Of a DNA stretch of 64,000 bases, positions 2,035-62,098 are shown one piece after another (within the stretch, counting starts at the first letter, position 1; each line of letters opens with the position of its first letter). Origin of the DNA: Vitis vinifera (lineage: Eukaryota > Streptophyta > Magnoliopsida > Vitales > Vitaceae). The stretch is from positions 3,051,001 through 3,115,000 of the forward strand of contig NC_081818.1 of assembly GCF_030704535.1 (NCBI RefSeq). The letters run 5' to 3'. Made by a program: the position numbers and the translations under genes. The notes under the pieces were generated by a model. That model ran no database searches. It had not been told where the DNA came from and saw only the letters and a program-made list of their open reading frames with translations.

Positions 2035-5000
2035 ATTGGATCTTCTCAGGGCTATTTTGTGAGCCTTCAAAAATGGGTATTGTGCAGAGAAATAGAAAGC
2101 TCAAATAGGGTTCAAAATCTCAGTCAAGATCAGTATGACTCGACCGAGTTATAACGGCCTCTGCTATGACCGATATCGGACCGATACCCGAGTTCAATAA
2201 TTGGTTGAGTTATGAATAACCTTGTTGAATCACAAAGAAAAATTGAGATAACCCTAATATTATGTCCAAACTAAGCTCTTAGGGTGATGGAAAAAAATGG
2301 TAATATCGAAGTGGAAATGGTGGATGAGAGAAAAATATCAAAACCCATGAAAGTGAAAAAATATAAAAAGTTCAGAGTCTTCAAACCCTTTGGATTTTCA
2401 TCCATTTATTTGCATCTCCATCATCTTGCATCTACGTAGGACTATTTAGTGAGACTTCAAAAATGGGTATTGTGTAGAGTACTAAAGAGCTCAAATAGGG
2501 TTCATAATCTCGGTTGAGACTCATACGACTTGATTGAGTCATATCTGCTTCAGCCATGATCGGTATCGGATCAATACCCGAGTCTAATATTTGATTAACT
2601 CATGAATAAACTTGTTGAATAAAAAAGAAACTTTGAGATAACTCTAAGATTATGTCCAAACTAAGCTTTTTGGGTGATGGATGATGGGTGATGGGTGATG
2701 GCAAAAATTGGTAATATTGGAGCAAAAATGGTGGATGAGAGAAGAAGATTGAAACCCATGAAAGTGAAAAAGTATAAAGAGTTTAGAGTCTTCAAACCCT
2801 TTTCATTTTCATTCCTATATTTGCATCTCAATCCTCTTGTATCTTCGTAGGGTTATTCTGTTAGCCTTAAAAAATGGGTATTGTGCAAATAAAATCTCGG
2901 TTAAGACTGGTACGACTGGTACGACTCAATCAAGGTTCAAAATCTCGGTTAAGACTGGTACGACTCGGCCAAGTCATATCTACCTCGGCCATGATCGATA
3001 CCGAACTGATACCCGAGTCCAATATTTGGTTGACTCATGAATAAACTTGTTGAATAAAAAAGAAACTTTGAGATAACCCTAAGATTATGTCGATGGGTGA
3101 TGGAAAAAATGGTAATATTGGAGCGTATATGGTGGATGAGAGAAGAAGATCAAAGCCCATGAGAGTGAAAAAATATGGAGGGCTCAAAGTCTTCAAACCC
3201 TTTGCATCTTCGTCCCTATATTTGCATCTTCATCCCTATATTTGCATCTTCATCATATTGTATCTTTGTAGGGCTATTTTGTGAGCCTTCAAAAATGGGT
3301 ATTGTGAAAAGAAATAGAAAGCTCAATTAGGATTCAAAATCTCGGTCGAGATCAATACGACTCGGCCAAGTAATATCCGCCTCGACCATGACTAGTACTA
3401 GACCAATACCCGAGTCTAATATTTGGTTAACTCATGAATAAACTTGTTGAATCACAAAAATAAAATAAAAAAAATTGAGATAACCCTAAGATTATGTCCT
3501 AAATAAGTTCTTCGAGTGATGCGTCATGGAAAAAAATTGTAATATTGGAGCTGAAATGACAGATGAGAGAAGAAGATCGAAACCTATGAAAGTGAAGAAG
3601 TATGGAGAGTTCAGAGTCTTCAAACCCTTTGCATCTTCATCCCTGTATTTGCATCTCTATCATGTTATATCTTTGTAGGGTTATTTTGTGAGCCTTCAAA
3701 AATGGGTATTGTGCAGAGAAACAGAGAGCTAAAAAGGGGTTCAAAATCTTGGCCATGACTATTATCGAACCGATACCCAAGTCCAATATTTAGTTGACTC
3801 ATGAATAAACTTGTTAAATCACAAAGAAACTTTGAGATAACCCTAAGATTATGTCCAAACTAAGCTCTTCGGGTAATGGGTGATGAAAAAAAATGGTAAT
3901 ATTGGAGGAAAAATGGTGGATGAGAGAAAAAGATCGAAACCCATGGTAGTGAAGAAGTATAGAGAGTTCAAACTCTTCAAACCCTTTGCATCTTCATCCT
4001 TGTATTTGCATCTCCATCCTCTTGTATCTTCGTAGGGTTATTTTATAAAAATTAGTATTGTGTAAAGAAATATAGAGCTCAAACAGGGTTCAAAATCTTG
4101 GTCGAAACCGGTAAGACTCAGCCGAGTCATATCTGTCCCAACCATGATCAGTATCAGACTGATACCCAAATCCAATATTTGATTGACTCATGAATAAACT
4201 TGCTAAATCACAAAGAAACTTTGAGATAACCTAAAGATTATGTCCAAGCTAAGCTCTTCAGGTGATGGGTGGTGAAAAAAAATGGTGACATTGGAGCAAA
4301 AATGGTTGATGAGAGAAGAAGATTGAAACCCATGAAAGCAAAGAAATATGGAGAGTTCAGAGTCTTCAAACCTTTTGCATCTTCATCCCTGTATTTGCAT
4401 CTTTATCATCTTGTATCTTCATAGGGTTATTTTGTGAGCCTTTAAAAATGGGTATTGTATAAAGAAATAGAGAGGTCAAACAAGGTTCAAAATCTCAATC
4501 GAGATTGGTATGACTCAACCGAGTCATATTTGCCTCGGCCATGACCAGTACCAGACCGATACTCAAGTCTAATATCTGGTTGACTCGCGAATAGACTTGC
4601 TAAATCACAAAGAAACTTTGAGATAACCTTAAGATTATGTCCAAACTAAGCTCTTTGGGTGATGGTTGATAGAAAAAAAATGGTAATATTGGAGTGAAAA
4701 TGGTGGATGAGAGAAGAAGATCGAAACCCATGAAAGTGTAGAAATATGGAAAGTTCAGAGTCTTCAAACCCTTTGGATTTTCATCCTTATTGTTGACAGA
4801 TCGGAGGGTTGGCCGCGTCCATTAACTCTCCTTGTGTTCGCCATGGGCACTTGGGTGAATGCACTATAAGGTTAAGGTATGCGCCTTTTCTAACAGCAAT
4901 TGCTTTTAGGAGAGTTGGTAGCACCTGAGGTCCTACAAGTGGTATCAGAGCTAAGTTCATGGATTCAAACCCCAGGGGTGTCGCTAGGGGGGAAGATTGT

Positions 5001-47645: not shown

Positions 47646-47839
47646 TGACGTGGCATCACTGGGAAATTACCATATCCAATGAAGGGATAGTGAAGTCAAT
47701 GCAGCCAAATACGTTCAAATCCCACGAGAAAACGCTCCAAAGCTTATAGCCGTTAGGACTAGCTCTCTCGATCCAACGGCTCACATTCATTTCAATTCAA
47801 ACTTCAAAAATCTAATAAAAACCCTATGTGACCGTTCGA
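47646..47839 (+). promoter_or_regulatory. Kinesin copy 1 promoter: one TGACGTGGCATC site and MSA-type elements
   Basis: TGACGTGGCATC occurs once, at 47646-47657, followed by sequence alignable to the copy 2 promoter (GGGAAATTACCATATCCAATG). Downstream are three AACGG-core motifs. 47747-47757 read on the minus strand is CCTAACGGCTA, a perfect match to the MSA consensus YCYAACGGYYA. 47772-47782 (TCCAACGGCTC) and 47829-47839 (minus TCGAACGGTCA) each miss one base. MSA elements drive G2/M expression through three-repeat MYBs. Confidence 0.6.
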
Positions 47840-48522: not shown

Positions 48523-51500
48523 ATGGATGAGAATGATGTTTCCACGGAAATCCAAGAGATTTCTTTGGATCAGGAGCAGAGACTTCCAGTTTCTCAGAAA
48601 ATTGATGATTTAAGCACCAAGATTCAGGTACAATTTTGATAACTATAGCCTAGCCATGCTTTGTTTAGATGCTGAGAAAGCTCAAATAGGGAACCTAAAA
48701 GAAAATTTTGAACTTGTCAAAAGAAAAAAATGAACTACGCATTTCAAGTAAGCAGAACAGTTGAATTAGATTAACTCTAAGCGGAGGATTTTTGTTTTCT
48801 CAAGAGTAATGTGAAATTGAACATTAGGAAATTTTCTTGTCTTTTCCTGCCTTTTCTATGCAACCAATCAGAGCTTTGGATGTTTTGTCTCAAAAGAAAA
48901 TCCATCCTCATTTACTTTTCATTGGCTTTGCATCTTCATTTGTCAGAATTTGAAGGGGGAGCACATAATTCTATGTAATGAAGTTAAGAGCATGAATACT
49001 GATTCCTTTCCTGGCCCCGAGGTTTCCAATGCTCTTCAGCTTCTCGGTTTGCCTTCTTCACTGACCAAATCTAATGTTGTATACCCTTCTTTTTTGGGGG
49101 GTCTGATTGATTGGTTTATTGTTTTCTTTGTTTGGTCTTTTAGGTATAGAACATGAAAATTTGAAGAAGAAATATACGGAAGACAGTCAGCTTCTGAAGA
49201 AGAAGTACCTAGAAGAATGCTTGGAACGGAAGCGGCTGTACAACGAAGTGATTGAACTCAAAGGCAACATCAGGGTCTTCTGCAGATGTAGACCCTTAAA
49301 TCAGGATGAAATTGCAAATGGATCCACTTCTATAGTTGACTTTGACTCATCTCAAGAGAATGAGCTTCAAATCATTTGCTCTGATTCTTCGAAAAAGCAA
49401 TTTAAGTTTGACCATGTGTTTAGGCCTGAGAGTGACCAAGGTAACCTCAAGAAACACATAATTGATTTTGGGTCTTGAATTCTTTACAAGTTTTTAATTC
49501 TGGGTTTGTTGAATATGCAGAGGCTGTTTTTGCACAAACTTCACCAATTGTGACTTCGGTGTTGGATGGGTACAATGTTTGTATATTTGCCTATGGACAG
49601 ACTGGAACTGGAAAGACCTTTACAATGGAAGGAACTCCTGAACATAGGGGAGTCAACTACAGGACTTTGGAGGAGTTGTTTCGAATTTCAAAGCAGAGAA
49701 GCAACATAATGAACTATGAATTGTTTGTTAGCATGCTGGAGGTTTACAATGAGAAGATAAGGGACCTTTTGGTAGAAAACTCCAACCAGCCTGCTAAGAA
49801 GTAGGTCTTCTGAACTTAATTCTTTACTATAGCTGTATCATTTGAAGTTTGGTGTTAAAATCAAACATGCAACTTATAGTCTGTTTTGATGAGCAGTGGG
49901 AAAACCATATGGGTATATTTTACTACTGGAAAGGAAAATGAGAACCATGATCATAAGCAAGATAACTAGTGTCATGCTCATGGCAATTTTTTCAAGGGAT
50001 AATTTAGTATTTAATGGGAGCTTTCATGTAGATTAGATGATAGAATTCACCTCTAAATTGCAGTTCTCGCTTCACAACTACACAGACATTAAAATGATGT
50101 TTGAATTTTGAAGCAAAAAAGATACTGCTAACAAAGAGAGAAAATTTATTTATTGGTGATTATTGTTTATTGATAAACACAAGTAGCTCTGGGTTGATTG
50201 TTAAATCTCCAACTGAGAATCTTTACATATGCTTGCTTTGCTTAAAAACCTAGAGAAGTTGAATTTCAGTTGAATCTTCCTATATTGATGGCCAAATTTC
50301 AATCGATTTTGGGCTTGGCATGTTAGGTTTTATTCCACTATTTCAAAACAGTTCCATTTGGGAAGTGGTGATGGCGGTTTTATTTCATTATCAACTCACA
50401 AAAATCGATTATTAAATTAAATTTAAGGTCAAATTTGATGCTAAATACATTATAATGATTTTTATTTGGTTTAATATGCCTTAAAATAGATCTAAATAGA
50501 CTATGTTATGTGGATTAAGGTTGGAGATCAAACAAGCAGCTGAGGGAACCCAAGAAGTCCCAGGACTAGTTGAAGCTCGCGTTTATGGCACAAATGAAGT
50601 GTGGGAACTGCTTAAATCTGGAAGCCGAATTAGGTCTGTTGGATCGACTAATGCCAATGAGCTCAGCAGCCGCTCTCACTGGTAATTTTCTGCTCTCTGA
50701 ATAATTTATTTACATAAACAAAATCAAGGCAGTTCATTAATTTTGCGGATCATAGTCTGTTTAAACTAGATTTGATATATGAGGTTGACCAAATATCCCA
50801 TTTATTGTGGTAATGATCAAATAACTTGAGTGCAGCTTGTTGAGAGTGACTGTTAAGGGGGAGAATTTAGTGAATGGGGAGAAGACAAGAAGCCACCTCT
50901 GGCTAGTGGACTTGGCTGGAAGTGAGCGGGTGGGCAGGATTGAAGTTGAAGGTGAAAGGTTGAAGGAATCTCAATTTATAAATAAATCGCTCTCAGCACT
51001 TGGCGATGTCATCTCTGCCCTTGCTTCTAAAACAGCCCACATTCCTTACAGGCACATCTCTCTCCCTCTCTCTCTCCACCCCCCCTTCTCTATGTCTCTC
51101 TCTCTCATCTTTGTGTGAATCTATCTTTCATTTTATTTAACTAAATATGTTTTATTTCTTTCTCTCCAAATCCAGGAACTCCAAGCTCACTCATATGCTA
51201 CAGAGCTCTCTAGGTGAGCTTCTCCTGTCTTTATATTTCAACATTTTATTTGATTGGGAGATGATCCCATATAGCTGGATTTCCTGCAAATTCTCTAGTT
51301 CTCCTGGTTACAATGTGCCCACTCCCCTGCACTTCGAGTAAGTGCAGTGGTGGTCATACTTTACTTTCTGCAACTTTGTATTCTGGGATTTGTAACTGCA
51401 GTAGTTTTTGAGGTTTAGCTGCAGATAATCCAAATCCAAATTTTGTGCTGCCATAAAGCAAAAGCTAAAATGTTCATATTTTTTTTCCTCAACTCAAAAA

Positions 51501-52891
51501 AATACTAATCAAAACTTAAAATACAGGAGGAGATTGCAAAACCCTAATGTTTGTCCAGATCAGCCCAAGTGCTGCAGATTTAGGAGAGACCCTTTGCTCA
51601 CTGAACTTTGCCAGCAGAGTCCGGGGAATTGAGTGTGGTCCTGTTCGTAAACAAGCAGATCTCACCGAAATTTTCAAGTATAAGCAACTGGTATGTGAAA
51701 ATAAGAATAAACTTTTCCAAAATAATTCTGTGCAGTTTCAAGCTGGGCTGAACTTCAGGTCTTATTTATGAACAGGCAGAAAAGCTAAAGCACGATGAGA
51801 AGGAAACCAAAAAATTGCAGGATAACTTGCAGTCACTGCAATTAAAACTTGCAGCCAGAGAACATATCTGCAGAAGTCTTCAAGAGAAGGTAACCACTCA
51901 TTTTTCTCCTTCAAAAATGGCATCTGAAATGCAACAAAAGATTTCACAATCTTTCTAACAGATGCCTAAAGTTATGCTTTTCAAGTTTTATGCAAACACA
52001 AAATAAGTAGCCGACTTTTGTCGGTTTCTTATTAGTTTTCATGCCATTGAAACAGATAGTTGATTGTAATTTTTTCAACAGGTTCGAGACCTTGAAAATC
52101 AATTAGCAGAGGAAAGGAAAACCAGATTAAAACAGGAAACTAGGGCCATTGCTGCTGCTTGTCCAAAACCTCCTGCCTCATCATCTTTATTAAAACAACC
52201 ACTGAAGACCATAGCAGAGAAAAAGCCACCTTTACCCTCAAAACCGAGGATGCCCTTGAGAAGAATCTCCAATTTCTTACCCCCACCATCTCCAATCCCA
52301 CCCCACAAAACCATGAGTTCCTCTTCCATTCATCCAGCTTCAACAGATGACAAAGAAAACATGCTCAGAACAACAGCTGCAGCAACCAATACAAAATCCT
52401 TTTTGCAACCAAGACGGACCTCCTTTGCTGTCAGACTTCCTCCAACATCAACAGCTCAGGTTCTTCAGCCGAAGAGACGAGTCTCCATTGCAACATTCCG
52501 CCCTGAATCGAACTCACACATGACCACTCCCCTCAACACTCAATTAAAGAGTAGAGGTGCAGTCGGCAGGCAATCCTTTGTGAGGGACCCACATAGGATA
52601 CGGCGTATATCAAGGATTTTCTCTCCATTGAGGAGGGCATCTGGTGCAACAGTTCAGGCAACACCAACTGCCATGAGAAGCAGTAGTAGATTCATGGGCC
52701 CATCGATGCAGGCAACACCAACTGCCATGAGGAGCAGTAGTAAATTCATGGGTAGTCCTCCTATGGAAGCAGGTTCATTGAGGTCAAAGCACCCAGCAGT
52801 AATTGCACTGCAAAGGAAACAGTTAGTGTGGAGTCCACTGACCATGAGGGGCGGCATGAGAAATTACAGAAGGTCATTAGTACCTTCTTGA
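48523..52891 (+). CDS. KIN14S: Kinesin-14 (KIN14S type), copy 1, intact
   Basis: Ten exons: 48523-48627, 48947-49046, 49144-49440, 49521-49800, 50520-50681, 50836-51051, 51176-51213, 51527-51690, 51776-51889 and 52082-52891. They give 761 residues. Order: short N-terminal region ([18 protein letters not shown]), coiled coil (about 68-107), motor (about 109-450), second coiled coil, basic serine/threonine-rich tail. Motor motifs: P-loop GQTGTGKT (about 193), switch I NELSSRSH, switch II DLAGSE. The internal motor with neck helix before it marks a minus-end-directed kinesin-14. The tail repeats [11 protein letters not shown] twice. The intron after exon 6 has a GC donor (TACAG|GCACAT). A leader intron probably ends at the TTCAG near 48494. 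An upstream in-frame ATG at 48445 lies before that acceptor and is not favoured. Confidence 0.92.
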
Positions 52892-55429: not shown

Positions 55430-55776
55430 TTTTTCAAATTAATCTACATCTCGACCACACTATGCACGCCACGTGTCTGATGAGAGGATCATACGGCGGT
55501 GAATCAATGGCTATGGGCTCTCATCACTTGGGTCTCACTTCCCTCTAAAATTTTTTTTGAAAACTAGCCGTTTGGATGAGGCGAATGGTGGGATAGAATC
55601 TAACGTTTTGACTTTGACTTTCACTTCCAGTTTGGTTCTAGAGAAAGAGACAGAAAAAGAAAATGCAAATAATTTAGAGAGAGAAACTGCGTATTTTAGA
55701 GAGACAAAGTGATGAATGTTGTGTTGAGAGTTTGAGACCCACCATTTGTGAATTGTTTTCTCTGGGGAAAAAAGAA
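55430..55776 (+). promoter_or_regulatory. Promoter and leader of the truncated gene at 55.8 kb
   Basis: CTCGACCACAC, GCCACGTGT, GAGGATC, CGGTGAATCAA and ACTAGCCGTTTGGATGA recur in order at 63720-64000. The element GCCACGTGT (about 55469) is a G-box/ABRE-type site kept in both copies. The recurrence shows that this region is part of the duplicated unit. Confidence 0.6.
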
Positions 55777-56324
55777 ATGGTTGTAAGAACCCCGCCAAAG
55801 CAGAAGAAAATTGATGCCCCTCTCAACCCCATTCTTCTCAGAGAACCTGTAAAGAAGGTGGCTACTTCATGCCTTTTCCTAGGAACCTTTTTCCGTCTCT
55901 TCTGTTTGGTTGCTGAGAAAAACTGCAGAACAGGAAAGAAAAAAGTTCGTGGTTTTTGAATCTTTCGTTTTTGATGTTCAATGGTTGTACTGGGTTGGAT
56001 GTTTCTATAATTTTGAGCATTTCTCATTAATGGGGTTTGAGCAACTGTCGTCTAGTGCACTGCCTTCTCTGGGGCTTTCTTGCCTTAATTTTCTCAGCAA
56101 CCAAACGGAGATTTGCATTCAGATCTCTCTCTCCCCAACTTCTGGGTCTGTGGTTTTATGTTTTTTCTGGGTGAAATTCAGGTGGATCAATGCATGGCTC
56201 GATTACAAGATCTTCAGTACACAGTTGCAGGTGGAACAAAGGTCGTATCTGGGGAGACACTGAGCCCTCGGAGTACCAGAGTCTATCTCAGAACGAGTCT
56301 CAGATGCAAGCAAGAGTCTCTCAG
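55777..56324 (+). pseudogene. First two exons of an unrecognised gene, probably truncated
   Basis: Exons 55777-55848 and 56182-56324 join in frame to 71 codons plus two bases. The product starts MVVRTPPKQKKIDAP and continues with [29 protein letters not shown] and CKQESLR. It reads like a genuine conserved plant protein, but I cannot name the family. After the GT donor at 56325 no convincing third exon is found. The second duplicated unit, starting with the repeat array at 56765, follows within 450 bases. The gene is therefore probably cut off by the duplication junction. A second copy of its promoter lies at the right edge of the window, and its exons would be outside. Confidence 0.55.
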
Positions 56325-56764
56325 GTATCTCTCACCACTTCTCTCAGTTTCTTCCCTTTTCCCTCCACTGTTTGGTTCCTGGGAAAATGAATATTATATT
56401 ATATATCAGTTCATTTACCTACCTTTTCCTCTCAACCAAACAGAACCATACGTTCCACTATAAAATCAGTGCTTCTTGTTTATTTTTCTCAGTCAGTTTG
56501 TAACATTCAAATGAGGTTTTGGAGGACAATAGATGCTGCCCGGAAAAAATTGCCAACTAACTCGATGTCAATAGGCATGGGATTCTAAATTTTACTCCTC
56601 TAGTTTTCCACAATTTTCTCCTCAGCCAAACAGACCTTTTTTTTTCTCTTTTTTTTTTTTTTGGTCTAGAGTTCCTCCCATTTATACTTTGTGGATTAGT
56701 GATCAATTGTTTCATATGAATTAATAATAATAATAATAATATAATAGTAATTTTTCCAAACATT

Positions 56765-56982
56765 AGGTGACGTGGCATCCCAACGAGGTGACGTGGTATC
56801 CCAAATAGATGACGTGGCATCCAATTAGGCGACGTGGCATTCAATTAGGTGACGTGACCTCCTAATTTAGGTGACGTGGCATCCTATTTTAGGTGACGTG
56901 GCATCCTAATTTTAGGTGACGTGGCATCCTAATTTTAGGTGACGTGGCATCATAGTTTAGGTGACGTGGCATCCCCAATTTA
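56765..56982. repeat. Ten tandem ~21-bp units with TGACGTGGC (ABRE/bZIP) sites
   Basis: Units start at 56765, 56786, 56807, 56827, 56847, 56869, 56891, 56914, 56937 and 56959. Consensus: AGGTGACGTGGCATCCTAAT plus one to three T. Seven units hold TGACGTGGCAT exactly. Eight hold ACGTGGC, the ABRE core. Units 2, 4 and 5 each carry small changes. The array ends about 140 bases before the TGACCGTTGAG element, inside the promoter of kinesin copy 2. Kinesin copy 1 has a single matching site at 47646. Confidence 0.95.
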
Positions 56983-57042
56983 GAAACAATATGAAATTAC
57001 CGTATCCAATGAAAATTTTCCAAAAAAAGGCTCCTAAGTTTA

Positions 57043-57122
57043 GAGCCGTTGGCGCAATCTCTCCCGGTCCAACAGCCCACATTCATTTAATTCAAACTTA
57101 TAAACCCTATGTGACCGTTGAG
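57043..57122 (+). promoter_or_regulatory. Kinesin copy 2 core promoter with weakened MSA elements
   Basis: The three MSA positions of copy 1 align here. 57043-57053 (minus GCCAACGGCTC) misses two consensus bases. 57068-57078 (TCCAACAGCCC) has lost the AACGG core. 57112-57122 (minus CTCAACGGTCA) misses one. Compare one perfect and two near-perfect elements in copy 1. Confidence 0.55.
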
Positions 57123-57684
57123 GAATCCACTGTCTTCTCTGTTTTTCCTCTTCATCAATTCCTTTCTCTCTTCCTCCAACTATTCGACCTGCAAAACGTC
57201 GTCGTTTTTTCCGATCGCATTGCTCTCAGATCACACGGCTTTGTTCAATTTCTGAATAAGGTTTCTGCTTTTATGTTTTTGTTTTTCTTTCTTTGATTTA
57301 AGAAGCATGAACCCTAGAAACGGTAATTGTTTTGGTCTTCTTGGATTTTTGAGTTCGAGAAGATGTTTGGGTGTCTGCAGTCTTGAGTTCTTGAGTAGTT
57401 TGTTCTTTCATTTGGTTGTTTTTTTGGGTGTCTGAGAATGTGGAGGTGACATCCGAGGAACTTATTTTTTTGGGTTCAAGAAGTTGAGAAAAGGTCGGTT
57501 TTAGTCAGTCAGGTGGTTGTGTTAGGTGCAGTTGAGTGGTTGTTTTTGTTTCATTGGGTCTTAACTCTGAAGTGATGGGAATTTGAAATTCTAGTTTGTC
57601 GTTTTTGTGGTTCTGTGATGTGTGTGTGTTGATCAAGGGTTTTGGATGTTGCTTCAGGAAAAAGTTGAACCAAATTGGGACAAG

Positions 57685-60258
57685 ATGGATGAGAATGATG
57701 TTTCCATGGAAATCCAAGAAATTTCTTTGGATCATAACCAGAGACTTCCGGTTTCTCAGAAAATTGATGAGTTGAGCACCGAGACTCAGGTACGGTTTTG
57801 GTAATTATAGCCTAACCATAATCTTTAGATGCTGAGAAAGCTCAGGTTAGGGCGACCTAAGAGAAAATTTTGAATCTTATATTTTACATGATTTAGGTTT
57901 GTCAAAAAATATGAACAACACATTTTAAGTAAGCGGAGGATTAATGCAAAATTGAAGATTCAGAATTTTACTTATCTTTTCCTGCCTTTTCTTAGCAACC
58001 AATCAGAGCCTTGGACGTTTTGTCTTGTAAGAAAGTTCATCTTCATTTATTTGTCATCGACTTTGAATCTTCATGTGACAGAATTTGAAGGTGCACACAG
58101 TTTTATGTAATGAAGTGAAGAACATTGATGCAGATTCCATTCCTGGCCCTGAAGTTTATGATGCCCTTCTGTTTCTCGGTATGTCGTCTTCACTAACTAC
58201 TACTGATATTCTATATTCTTCTTGTCCGGGTTTTGATTGGTTTGTTACTTGCTTTATTTGATTTTAGGTATTGAGTATGAAACTTTGAAGAAGAAATATT
58301 TGGAAGAGAGTGAGCTTCTGAAGAAGAAGTACCTTGAAGAGTGCTTGGAACGGAAGCGGCTGCACAATGAAGTTATTGAACTCAAAGGCAGCATCAGGGT
58401 CTTCTGCAGGTGTAGACCCTTAAATCAAGCTGAAATTGCTAATGGATCTACTTCTATAGTCGACTTTGACTCATCTCGAGAAAATGAGCTTCAAATCATT
58501 TGCTCTGATTCTTCAAAGAAGCAATTTAAGTTTGACCATGTGTTCAGGCCTGGGAGTGACCAAGGTAACCTGAACATTCTCATATTTGATTTTGTTACTC
58601 TGGAGTAATTAGTTAATGGGTCTTGCACTGTTTACAAGTTTTTAATTCTAGGTTTGTTAAATATGCAGAGGCTGTTTTTGCACAAACTTCAGCAATTGTG
58701 ACTTCTGTGCTGGATGGGTACAATGTCTGTGTATTTGCCTATGGACAAACTGGAACTGGAAAGACCTTTACAATGGAAGGAACTCCTGAAAATAGGGGAG
58801 TCAACTACAGGACTCTGGAGGAGTTGTTCCGAATTTCAAGGGAGCGAAGCAACATAATAAATTATGAATTGTTTGTTAGCATGTTGGAGGTTTACAATGA
58901 GAAGATCAGAGACCTTTTGGTAGAAAAATCCAACCAGCCTCCTAAGAAGTAGGTCCCCTGAACTGAATTCTTTACTATAGCTGTACCATTTCAAGTATGG
59001 TATTCTGTCAAACATGCAACTTATACAAATATTCTGATTCTGATAACAAGTGGAAAAACCGAATGGTTTATTTTACCAATAGAAAAAATAAAAAATAATA
59101 AAAGAGAGAGAACCATGATCATAAGCAAGATTAAGTAGTGTCATGCTTATGGAAAAATTTTTGAAACAGAATTTATTTTCTATTGAGAGCTTACATGTAG
59201 ATTGGATGATAGAATGCACTGTAGTTGTGTAGTTCTCACTTTGCAACTTGCACGAACATTACACTTTTTTCTGTGTAAAATGATCTTTGAATTTTGGACC
59301 AAAAAAAGATGCTGCAAACAAAGAGAAAATACTTTATTTATTGGTGATTATATTTATTAATAAACACAGCATCAGTAGCTCTGGATTAGTTGGCCTCTGT
59401 ACATATCCTTGCTTCACTCAAACCCTAGAAAAGTTGAACTTCAATTGAATCACTCAAAACAAAGCATATTTAAAACAACTTGTTACCCACTGAAAATTCA
59501 ATCAAATTTGGGCTTGGCTTGTTGGGTTTTGTTCTAGTGTTTCAATTAGTTGTGGTTTTCTTCAGTAACAAACAACAAAACTCAGTAATTGAATTAAGTT
59601 TGAGGTCATATTTGGTCCTAACCATTATGCATTGTTGAATGTTATCTTAAAATAGATCTAAATAGAATGTGTTATGTGGATCTAGGTTGGAGGTCAAACA
59701 AGCAGCAGAAGGAACCCAAGAAGTCCCAGGACTAGTTGAAGCCCGTGTTTATGGCACAGATGAAGTGTGGGGACTGCTTCAATCTGGAAGCCGAAATAGA
59801 TCTGTTGGATCCACTAATGCTAATGAGCTCAGCAGCCGCTCTCACTGGTAATTTGCTGCTTCTGGTTGACAAATTAGATAATGTGTTATATTCATTTGTA
59901 AACATACATAACCAAAATCAAGGCAGTTCATTAATTTTGTGGTTCATAGTATGTTAAAACTATATTTGATGATATTATGAGGTTGGCCAAAATATCCCTT
60001 TTATATTGTGGTAATGATCAAATAATCTTGTGTGTGCAGCTTGTTGAGAGTGACTGTTAAGGGGGAGAATTTAGTGAATGGGGAGAGGACAAGTAGCCAC
60101 CTCTGGCTAGTGGACTTGGCTGGAAGTGAGCGGGTGGGGAGGATTGAAGCTGAAGGTGAAAGGTTGAAGGAATCTCAATTTATAAACAAATCGCTCTCAG
60201 CACTAGGTGATGTTATCTCTGCCCTTGCATCTAAAACAGCCCACATTCCTTACAGGCA

Positions 60259-60294
<36 letters not shown>

Positions 60295-61559
60295 TCTCTC
60301 TCTCATTGTTGTGTGAATTTATTCTTCTTTTATTTTACTAAATATGTTTTATTTCATCTCTCCAAATCCAGGAACTCCAAGCTCACTCATATTCTACAAA
60401 GCTCTCTAGGTGAGTCTCCTGTCTTTGTATTTTAACATTTTATTTCATTTGGAAACAATCCTATATAGCTGGATTTCCTGTCCTGCAAATTCTCTAGCTC
60501 CTGATTACAATGTGCCACTCCACTGCACTTACTTGAAGTGCAGTGGTGGTCATTATGAACTACATGGGTGATTTGTTAATTGCCTTGAGCCATATTTTAC
60601 TTTATGCATCTTGGTATGCTGGGATTTGTAACTGCAGCAAATTCCAAGGTTTAGCTGCAGGCAACCCAAGTCCAAATTTTTTGTAGCCATAAAGCATAAG
60701 TTAAATGGTATATTCCTTTTTCTCAAATAAAGAAAAACACTAACCAAAACTTCAAAAACAGGAGGGGATTGCAAAACCCTAATGTTTGTCCAGATCAGCC
60801 CAAGTGCTGCAGACTTAGGAGAGACCCTTTGCTCACTCAACTTTGCCAGCAGAGTCCGGGGAATTGGGTGTGGTCCTGTTCGTAAACAGGCTGATCTCAC
60901 CGAGCTTTTCAAGTATAAGCAACTGGTATGTGAACGTTAAGAATAAAGCTTTTCCAAAACAATTCTTTCAGTTTCTGGTTGGCTGAACTTAGGTTTGATT
61001 TATAAACAGGCAGAAAAGCTAAAGCATGAAGAAAAGGAAACCAAAAAATTACAGGATGTCTGCAGAAGTCTTCAAGAGAAGGTAATTATCATCACTTAGT
61101 GTGTGCTTTTTGACATAGATCAAATAATTAAATAATATTAGACTGATTCTTTGACCTTTGGAGGAGGTTGATATTCTATCCAAATCACCTGAAGTGGCAT
61201 CTGATTAGTTTTTGTCAGCTTTTGATTAGTCTTCATGCCAATGAAACAGATAGTTGATAGCAAATTTTTCTCAACAGGTTCGGGACCTTGAAAATCAATT
61301 AGCAGTGGAAAGGAAAACCAGATTAAAACAACCCCTGAAGACCATTGCAGAGAAGAAGCCGCCTTTGGGTCCTTCAAAGCTGAAGATGCCTCTGAAAGAA
61401 ATCTCTAATTTCTTGCCCCCACCATCTCCAATCCCACCCCACAAAACCATGAGTTACTCTTCATCCTTCCTGCTTCAACAGATAACAAAGAAAACATGCT
61501 CAGACCATCAGCTGCAGCAACCAAAACAAAATCCCTTTTGCAACCAAGACGGACCATAG
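57685..61559 (+). CDS. Kinesin-14 (KIN14S type), copy 2, tail truncated by frameshift
   Basis: Ten exons: 57685-57789, 58082-58178, 58268-58564, 58669-58948, 59686-59847, 60040-60255, 60372-60409, 60762-60925, 61010-61081 and 61278-61559. They give 570 residues against 761 in copy 1. The motor is complete ([22 protein letters not shown]) and very similar to copy 1. Exon 2 is one codon shorter. Exon 9 lacks 14 codons of the coiled coil found in copy 1. In exon 10, shortly after KTMSYSSS, one base is missing relative to copy 1. The frame then runs to a TAG at 61557. The old tail frame stays readable to 62098. The same GC-AG intron follows exon 6. The product, if made, would be a motor without its basic tail. 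Confidence 0.82.
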
Positions 61560-62098
61560 CGAAGAACAAGCCATCTTTGGGTCCTTCAAAACTGAGGATG
61601 ATGCCTGTCAGAAGAATTTCCTATCTCTTGCCCCCACCATCTCCAATCCTTCCAGCTTCAACAGATGACAGAGTAAACATGCCCAGACCAACAGCTGCAG
61701 CAACCAACACAAAATCCTTTTTGCAACCAAGACGGACCTCCATTTCTCTCAGACTTCCTCAAACATCAACAGCACAGGTTCTTCAGCCCAAGAGACGGGT
61801 CTCAATTGAAACCCTTCTCCCTGAATTTAACTCACACATGATCACACCCCTTACCGCTGAACTAAAGAGTAGAGGTGCAATGGGCAGTCAGTCCTTCGTG
61901 AGGAACCCATATAGGATACAGCGTATATCAAGGATTTTCTCTCCACTGCCAGGGTCGAGGACAGCATCAGGTGCAACAGTGCAGGCAACACCAACTGCCA
62001 TGAGGAGCTGTAGTAAATTCATGGAAGCAGGTTCATTGAGGCCAAAGCTTTCCTTCGTGAGGGACCCAAAAAAAATTCTGTACTATACCCCCTATTAA
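61496..62098 (+). pseudogene. Detached C-terminal tail frame of kinesin copy 2
   Basis: An open frame of 200 codons continues the tail of copy 1 ([30 protein letters not shown]). It contains an internal direct duplication: the block [17 protein letters not shown]...[15 protein letters not shown] at about 61365-61550 is repeated as LGPSKLRMMPVRRISYLLPPPSP...[15 protein letters not shown] at about 61575-61738. Copy 1 has it once. The final residues (DPKKILYYTPY) come from flanking DNA, so the original end and 3' UTR were lost by a deletion. Confidence 0.8.

Follow-up and report, generated by a model that had tools for sequence, protein, structure and literature searches.

The promoter of a kinesin-14-like gene in grape carries a minisatellite in which a bZIP-type site is repeated ten times in tandem, and shorter arrays of the same units occur in three related promoters elsewhere in the genome. 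Our preferred explanation would be a promoter minisatellite of G/C-hybrid ACGT elements (TGACGTGGC), derived from a single bZIP-type site that is still found upstream of the neighbouring paralogue, kinesin copy 1. The structural part of this explanation is very probably correct. The best single reading of the function, to which we give slightly less than even chances, is that the array provides multi-site bZIP input to the mitotic-type promoter of kinesin copy 2; an array without such a function is nearly as likely. The array, the copy-1 site and the two genes lie as follows in the window, by which we mean the entire 64-kb stretch of DNA analysed:

56763-56983, + strand: bZIP-site minisatellite, ten units at a spacing of 20-23 bp, all with the ACGT core
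47646-47657, + strand: lone TGACGTGGCATC in front of kinesin copy 1, at the position of the array
57685-61559, + strand: kinesin-14-like copy 2, ATG at 57685 set by similarity to copy 1
48523-52891, + strand: kinesin-14-like copy 1, ATG at 48523 set by eye, last exon open

TRF delimited the array at 56763-56983, with a period of 22, 10.2 copies and 85% matches. Its near-identical units lie head to tail and fall within the range of roughly 10-100 bp that is characteristic of minisatellites. ACGTG starts at 56770, 56791, 56812, 56832, 56852, 56874, 56896, 56919, 56942 and 56964, and the modal unit reads TTAGG-TGACGTGGCATC-CTAA. The ACGT core is present in all ten units, [CT]GACGTGG in nine, intact TGACGTGG in eight and TGACGTGGC in seven; units 7 and 8 are identical in sequence. 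A preliminary description had reported ten bZIP-type units in front of kinesin copy 2, and the TRF result, the ACGTG positions and the motif counts confirm that this array is real and tandemly multiplied. Across the whole window, TGACGTGG was found nine times on the + strand (eight times in the array and once at 47646) and never on the - strand. A first-order Markov model of the window gave an expectation of 0.0006 occurrences of TGACGTGG per 220 bp, with a maximum of 1 in 20,000 simulations, and the simulated maximum was 2 when the array's own composition served as the model. A chance origin of the site density in the array is excluded. Elsewhere in the window, TRF also reported a 389-bp tandem repeat at 3751-4786, with 2.6 copies and 85% matches.

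The unit length had also been taken to place all sites on the same face of the DNA. Counted by hand from the ACGTG positions, eight of the ten sites lie within ~2 bp of a 10.5-bp phase, and the last two deviate from it by 4-5 bp. The phasing statistic R was 0.47 at 10.5 bp and reached its highest value, 0.63, at 10.7 bp, among periods of 10.0-11.1 bp tried without a simulated null. Phasing appears to be partial: in strict form it is not borne out for all ten sites, and eight of them lie roughly on one face.

The single site of copy 1 was found as described before: TGACGTGGCATC is present once, at 47646, in a place that aligns with the array, and GAAATTACCATATCCAATGA comes shortly after it. A search of the genome (495.6 Mb in 21 contigs) gave five matches, namely the window, three paralogous promoters and one place on C4, which proved to be an AT-rich simple repeat and was set aside. 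The three paralogous promoters, located on C8 and C18 of the same genome and absent from the preliminary description, carry shorter arrays with four units on C8, four at C18:35.94M and three at C18:32.36M. The unit numbers of the five promoters are 10, 4, 4, 3 and 1.

A search with the kinesin exon gave 11 matches, six of which are close kin at 80-100% identity: the two genes in the window and the copies at C8:20.63M, C18:32.36M, C18:35.92M and C18:35.94M. All four dispersed copies contain stops and are broken and truncated, and the stretches examined around them yielded no exon 6, 7 or 8. Three of the four have kept the promoter with its array; at C18:35.92M, similarity to copy 2 starts only at window position 57589, in the part of the leader that directly precedes the ATG. 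Downstream of the array, the three dispersed promoters are 91-94% identical to copy 2. All three are without ~320 bp (about 56428-56750) between the TANGLED-like part described below and the array. Because copy 2 matches the TANGLED-like gene across much of this stretch, the absence looks like one deletion in the common ancestor of the three. At the other end, the similarity of C18:35.924M, C18:35.937M and C18:32.364M to copy 2 stops at one common point, window position 59393, which suggests that the three C18 kinesin fragments descend from one truncated copy. The match of the C8 fragment stops earlier, at about 58740. This fragment (C8:20.622M) is interrupted just behind the leader by ~4.5 kb, which by eye we take to be a Copia-type element, and its two kinesin parts overlap by ~8 bp.

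An exact paired-site pattern had 12 matches in the whole genome, nine of them in this kinesin promoter family, and its reversed control had one. All four matches of another exact pair pattern fell in copy 2, and the array DNA itself was found in four places, all within the same promoter family. These searches, which covered exact patterns only or best-scoring candidates only and could therefore miss diverged arrays elsewhere, do not support the array as a widespread grape repeat or transposon family. The remaining three exact GACGTGGCA pairs, with a spacing of 6-14 bp, are located at C4:16461782, C13:6752317 and C19:1969053, and those on C13 and C19 are almost one sequence. In the titles and abstract beginnings of the literature matches listed for grape kinesins and kinesin promoter minisatellites, this array or kinesin locus was not found.

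Two further features lie immediately upstream of the array:

55606-56634, + strand: 5' part of a TANGLED-like gene, by eye comprising exons 1 and 2, the intron between them and part of the next intron
56635-56762, + strand: AT-rich stretch from the TANGLED-like fragment to the array, inferred junction, largely absent in the copies on C8 and C18

The fragment is 76-88% identical to C14:3114976-3116032, a stretch that overlaps the right end of the window by 25 bases, continues beyond it and belongs to a gene that, from its resemblance, is presumably TANGLED-like. For two readings of this gene, Pfam gave no family up to an E value of 0.1, and nothing useful was found for it among the literature matches listed. 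Exon 2 of the fragment is still open. The fragment points into the promoter of kinesin copy 2 and possibly has a promoter of its own. The arrangement of the genes (kinesin 1, TANGLED-like fragment, kinesin 2, TANGLED-like gene) points to a tandem duplication of a block of kinesin plus TANGLED-like gene, in which the first TANGLED-like copy would have lost its 3' part. The array adjoins the inferred duplication junction, directly behind it.

It had been proposed that a single site was amplified tenfold after gene duplication. The multiplication at copy 2 and the single site at copy 1 agree with this proposal; the copies on C8 and C18 do not, since promoters copied from copy 2 with 4, 4 and 3 units imply that a multi-unit array predates their spread. 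The dispersed arrays have unit variants in common, GCACC in the first unit and CGACG in the second, the latter also found in unit 4 of copy 2, and from these we infer that at least three units were present before the dispersed copies spread. The outer flanks of the first and last units are the same in all four arrays. A collinear, unit-by-unit history of copy 2 and the dispersed arrays was rejected, as the CGACG and TGGTATC variants occur in differing order, and the ancestral number can thus be taken no further than at least three. The identity of units 7 and 8 suggests later growth at copy 2, and part of the growth to ten units may be later than the dispersal. Judged by these comparisons, the array goes back further than first assumed and is present at more places in its gene family. 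The single site of copy 1 may be ancestral or the remnant of a collapsed array, although collapse to one site would be the less simple alternative.

The joined two-exon reading of copy 2 matched the Pfam Kinesin family at E 8.5e-42, and its best relatives among solved structures were chains of Ncd, which is a kinesin-14. In a comparison of four motor segments, copies 1 and 2 were 90-96% identical. Six exon segments delimited by eye, which did not include exon 5 and the last exon, gave a dS of 0.227 and a dN of 0.054, a ratio of 0.24; copy 2 is free of stops in these segments, as it is in the compared motor exons. The last exon of copy 2 has 182 nt more than that of copy 1. Reading on in the starting frame leads to a first stop codon that ends at 61559, and the later part of the exon resembles copy 1 in a different frame (the frames starting at 61275 and 61502 differ). 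Given this out-of-frame last exon, copy 2 may be decaying. The 182-nt stretch in this exon (61275-62098) is apparently an internal duplication, and the exon is also without 63 nt present in copy 1.

The array precedes a promoter of cell-cycle type:

57046-57119, + strand: mitotic-type proximal promoter of copy 2

Patterns of the TTGGCGC type are E2F-like, and one is found here at 57049, together with CCGTT, the MSA core read from the - strand, at 57046 and 57115 and with TATAAA at 57099. AACGG is the MSA core as given in PMC8964727. The promoter of copy 1 has three MSA cores and is without the E2F-like site and TATAAA. The array ends ~115 bp upstream of the TATAAA at 57099, and CCAAT boxes are present at 56821, 56975 and 57006.

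Asking whether the core of the unit has been under selection, we tallied 22 units from the five promoters. In ACGTGG, 2/132 letters are non-modal, compared with 56/286 in the five bases before and eight bases after the octamer; the first two letters of the octamer, which belong to neither group, have 7/44. A Fisher test of ACGTGG against the flanks gave 3e-8, a value inflated by the common descent of the units. With the 21 columns as replicates, and the first two letters of the octamer counted as flank, p was 0.0003 by cells and 0.001 by states, and 0.012 for copy 2 alone; these p values overstate the case, as ACGTGG was picked as the core after the tally had been inspected and the units share a common descent. 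The core served to divide the arrays into units, but all units measure 20-26 bp, which means that none was missed through a broken core. The low variation of ACGTGG compared with its flanks suggests past selection.

With K1 set aside, 20 of 21 units have retained the core CpG, and in none has it turned into TG or CA. In the 300 bp behind the array, 48/72 CpG cells are kept and 13 are TG/CA (Fisher p = 0.01 against the core), a weak comparison because a position outside the array entered the count as soon as one copy had CpG, a choice that biases the outside positions towards loss. Farther downstream, CpG in common with copy 2 amounts to 20/42 and 20/46 in the C18 copies and 10/16 in the shorter C8 stretch. 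The pseudogene promoters, on which recent selection would not be expected, have ACGT in 10/11 units, with 1/66 non-modal letters in ACGTGG versus 29/143 in the flanks. Since they also keep the core, most of its constraint must, unless due to chance, predate the spread of the pseudogene copies.

The preliminary description had also raised the possibility that the minisatellite is neutral. In this view it was generated by slippage and unequal exchange at the duplication junction and with no regulatory effect beyond that of one ancestral site. Such an array should diverge evenly along the unit, but ACGTGG varies less than the spacers and the core CpG shows no deamination in the 22 units. A neutral origin would, on the other hand, account for an array length that varies over the five promoters, for identical units 7 and 8, which point to recent slippage, for arrays that persist in front of pseudogenes and for a copy 2 with an out-of-frame tail. 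We regard it as a strong contender, if not quite an even chance. If the array is neutral, it warns that counts of promoter motifs can arise by slippage.

Under the preferred reading of multi-site bZIP input, several bZIP dimers would bind the array and would add to or modify the activity of the cell-cycle-type promoter with its MSA and E2F-like sites, and how strong a bZIP input copy 2 receives would be set by unit number. The array, the copies with their unit numbers and the conserved core are seen in the sequence; the binding, the direction of its effect and the bZIP concerned are predictions. We counted in favour of this reading the ten units with ACGT in every one, the core conservation, the retained core CpG (a weak point), the concentration of the pair pattern in one family, the dN/dS of 0.24 with no stops in copy 2 and the published links of the motif to bZIP factors, and against it the core conservation in pseudogenes, the out-of-frame tail of copy 2 and the incomplete phasing. 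It is rather unlikely that, after duplication beside a broken division-plane gene, one G/C-hybrid site multiplied under selection and gave copy 2 a dose-tuned bZIP input, lacking in copy 1, in addition to MYB3R/E2F control. If true, this reading of the multiplied site would mean that a promoter minisatellite drives the divergence of cell-division paralogues. Few routes retune a gene as fast as a promoter minisatellite in which one transcription-factor site is multiplied, and the graded natural series of 10, 4, 4, 3 and 1 units of the same promoter in one genome would make the effect of unit number directly measurable.

Which bZIP could read the site depends on the letters around ACGT. GACGTG, present in all ten units of copy 2, has been named a GC-hybrid bZIP element (PMC10163045). 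PLACE entries link TGACGTGG to TGA1 and GBF1, and CCACGTCA is listed as UPR motif I of Arabidopsis (PMC1832190); TGACGTGR corresponds to the mammalian-type mUPRE bound by XBP1 (PMC3676789). The array site is a G/C-hybrid element with several bZIP groups as possible readers, among which the sequence alone offers no choice. ABREs have a strict form, YACGTGGC, and a relaxed form, ACGTGKC, and an ABA response commonly requires several of them together. The preliminary description had proposed an ABA- or drought-responsive ABRE cluster, and the relaxed core does occur eight times in the array, in line with such a requirement. However, G precedes ACGT in all ten units, which leaves no strict ABRE (0/10) and no G-box CACGTG, and the promoter context of copy 2 is mitotic-type. 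With nine UPR-type TGACGTGR and nine TGACGT in the same array, the label ABRE is a weak one, and we consider an ABRE cluster very improbable. Least probable of all is UPR input, in which the units would be UPRE-type elements (TGACGTGR; reverse complement CCACGTCA) read by ER-stress bZIPs: TGACGTGR is found nine times and TGACGTGG (CCACGTCA reversed) eight times in the array, but kinesins are not known as typical targets of the UPR.

Promoter minisatellites of the same kind as the grape array have been described in citrus, apple and orchid, and the repeat unit of the apple MYB10 R6 promoter is reportedly near 23 bp. The citrus CsLCYb1 promoter has a 20-bp tandem repeat whose copy number varies between citrus species, and loss of one or two copies reduces activity to 55% and about 23% (PMC5020073); the repeat is given as three copies in PMC5996158. 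Both this repeat and the grape array are short tandem repeats in a plant promoter. The citrus unit differs in being without an ACGT bZIP core, in its lower copy number and in having a demonstrated function, whereas the grape array is known from sequence. The R6 minisatellite of apple MYB10, with five repeats, likewise is a tandem promoter repeat and reportedly causes autoregulation of MYB10 itself (PMC11321683, PMC5996158); the grape array, by contrast, carries a bZIP-type site and is without sign of autoregulation. The link to bZIP factors proposed for the grape array has a counterpart in the minisatellite-like dual repeat of the Phalaenopsis GDPS promoter, to which a bZIP factor binds in one-hybrid and transactivation tests, although that repeat consists of two 75-bp units in which its authors found no known bZIP element (PMC5996158).
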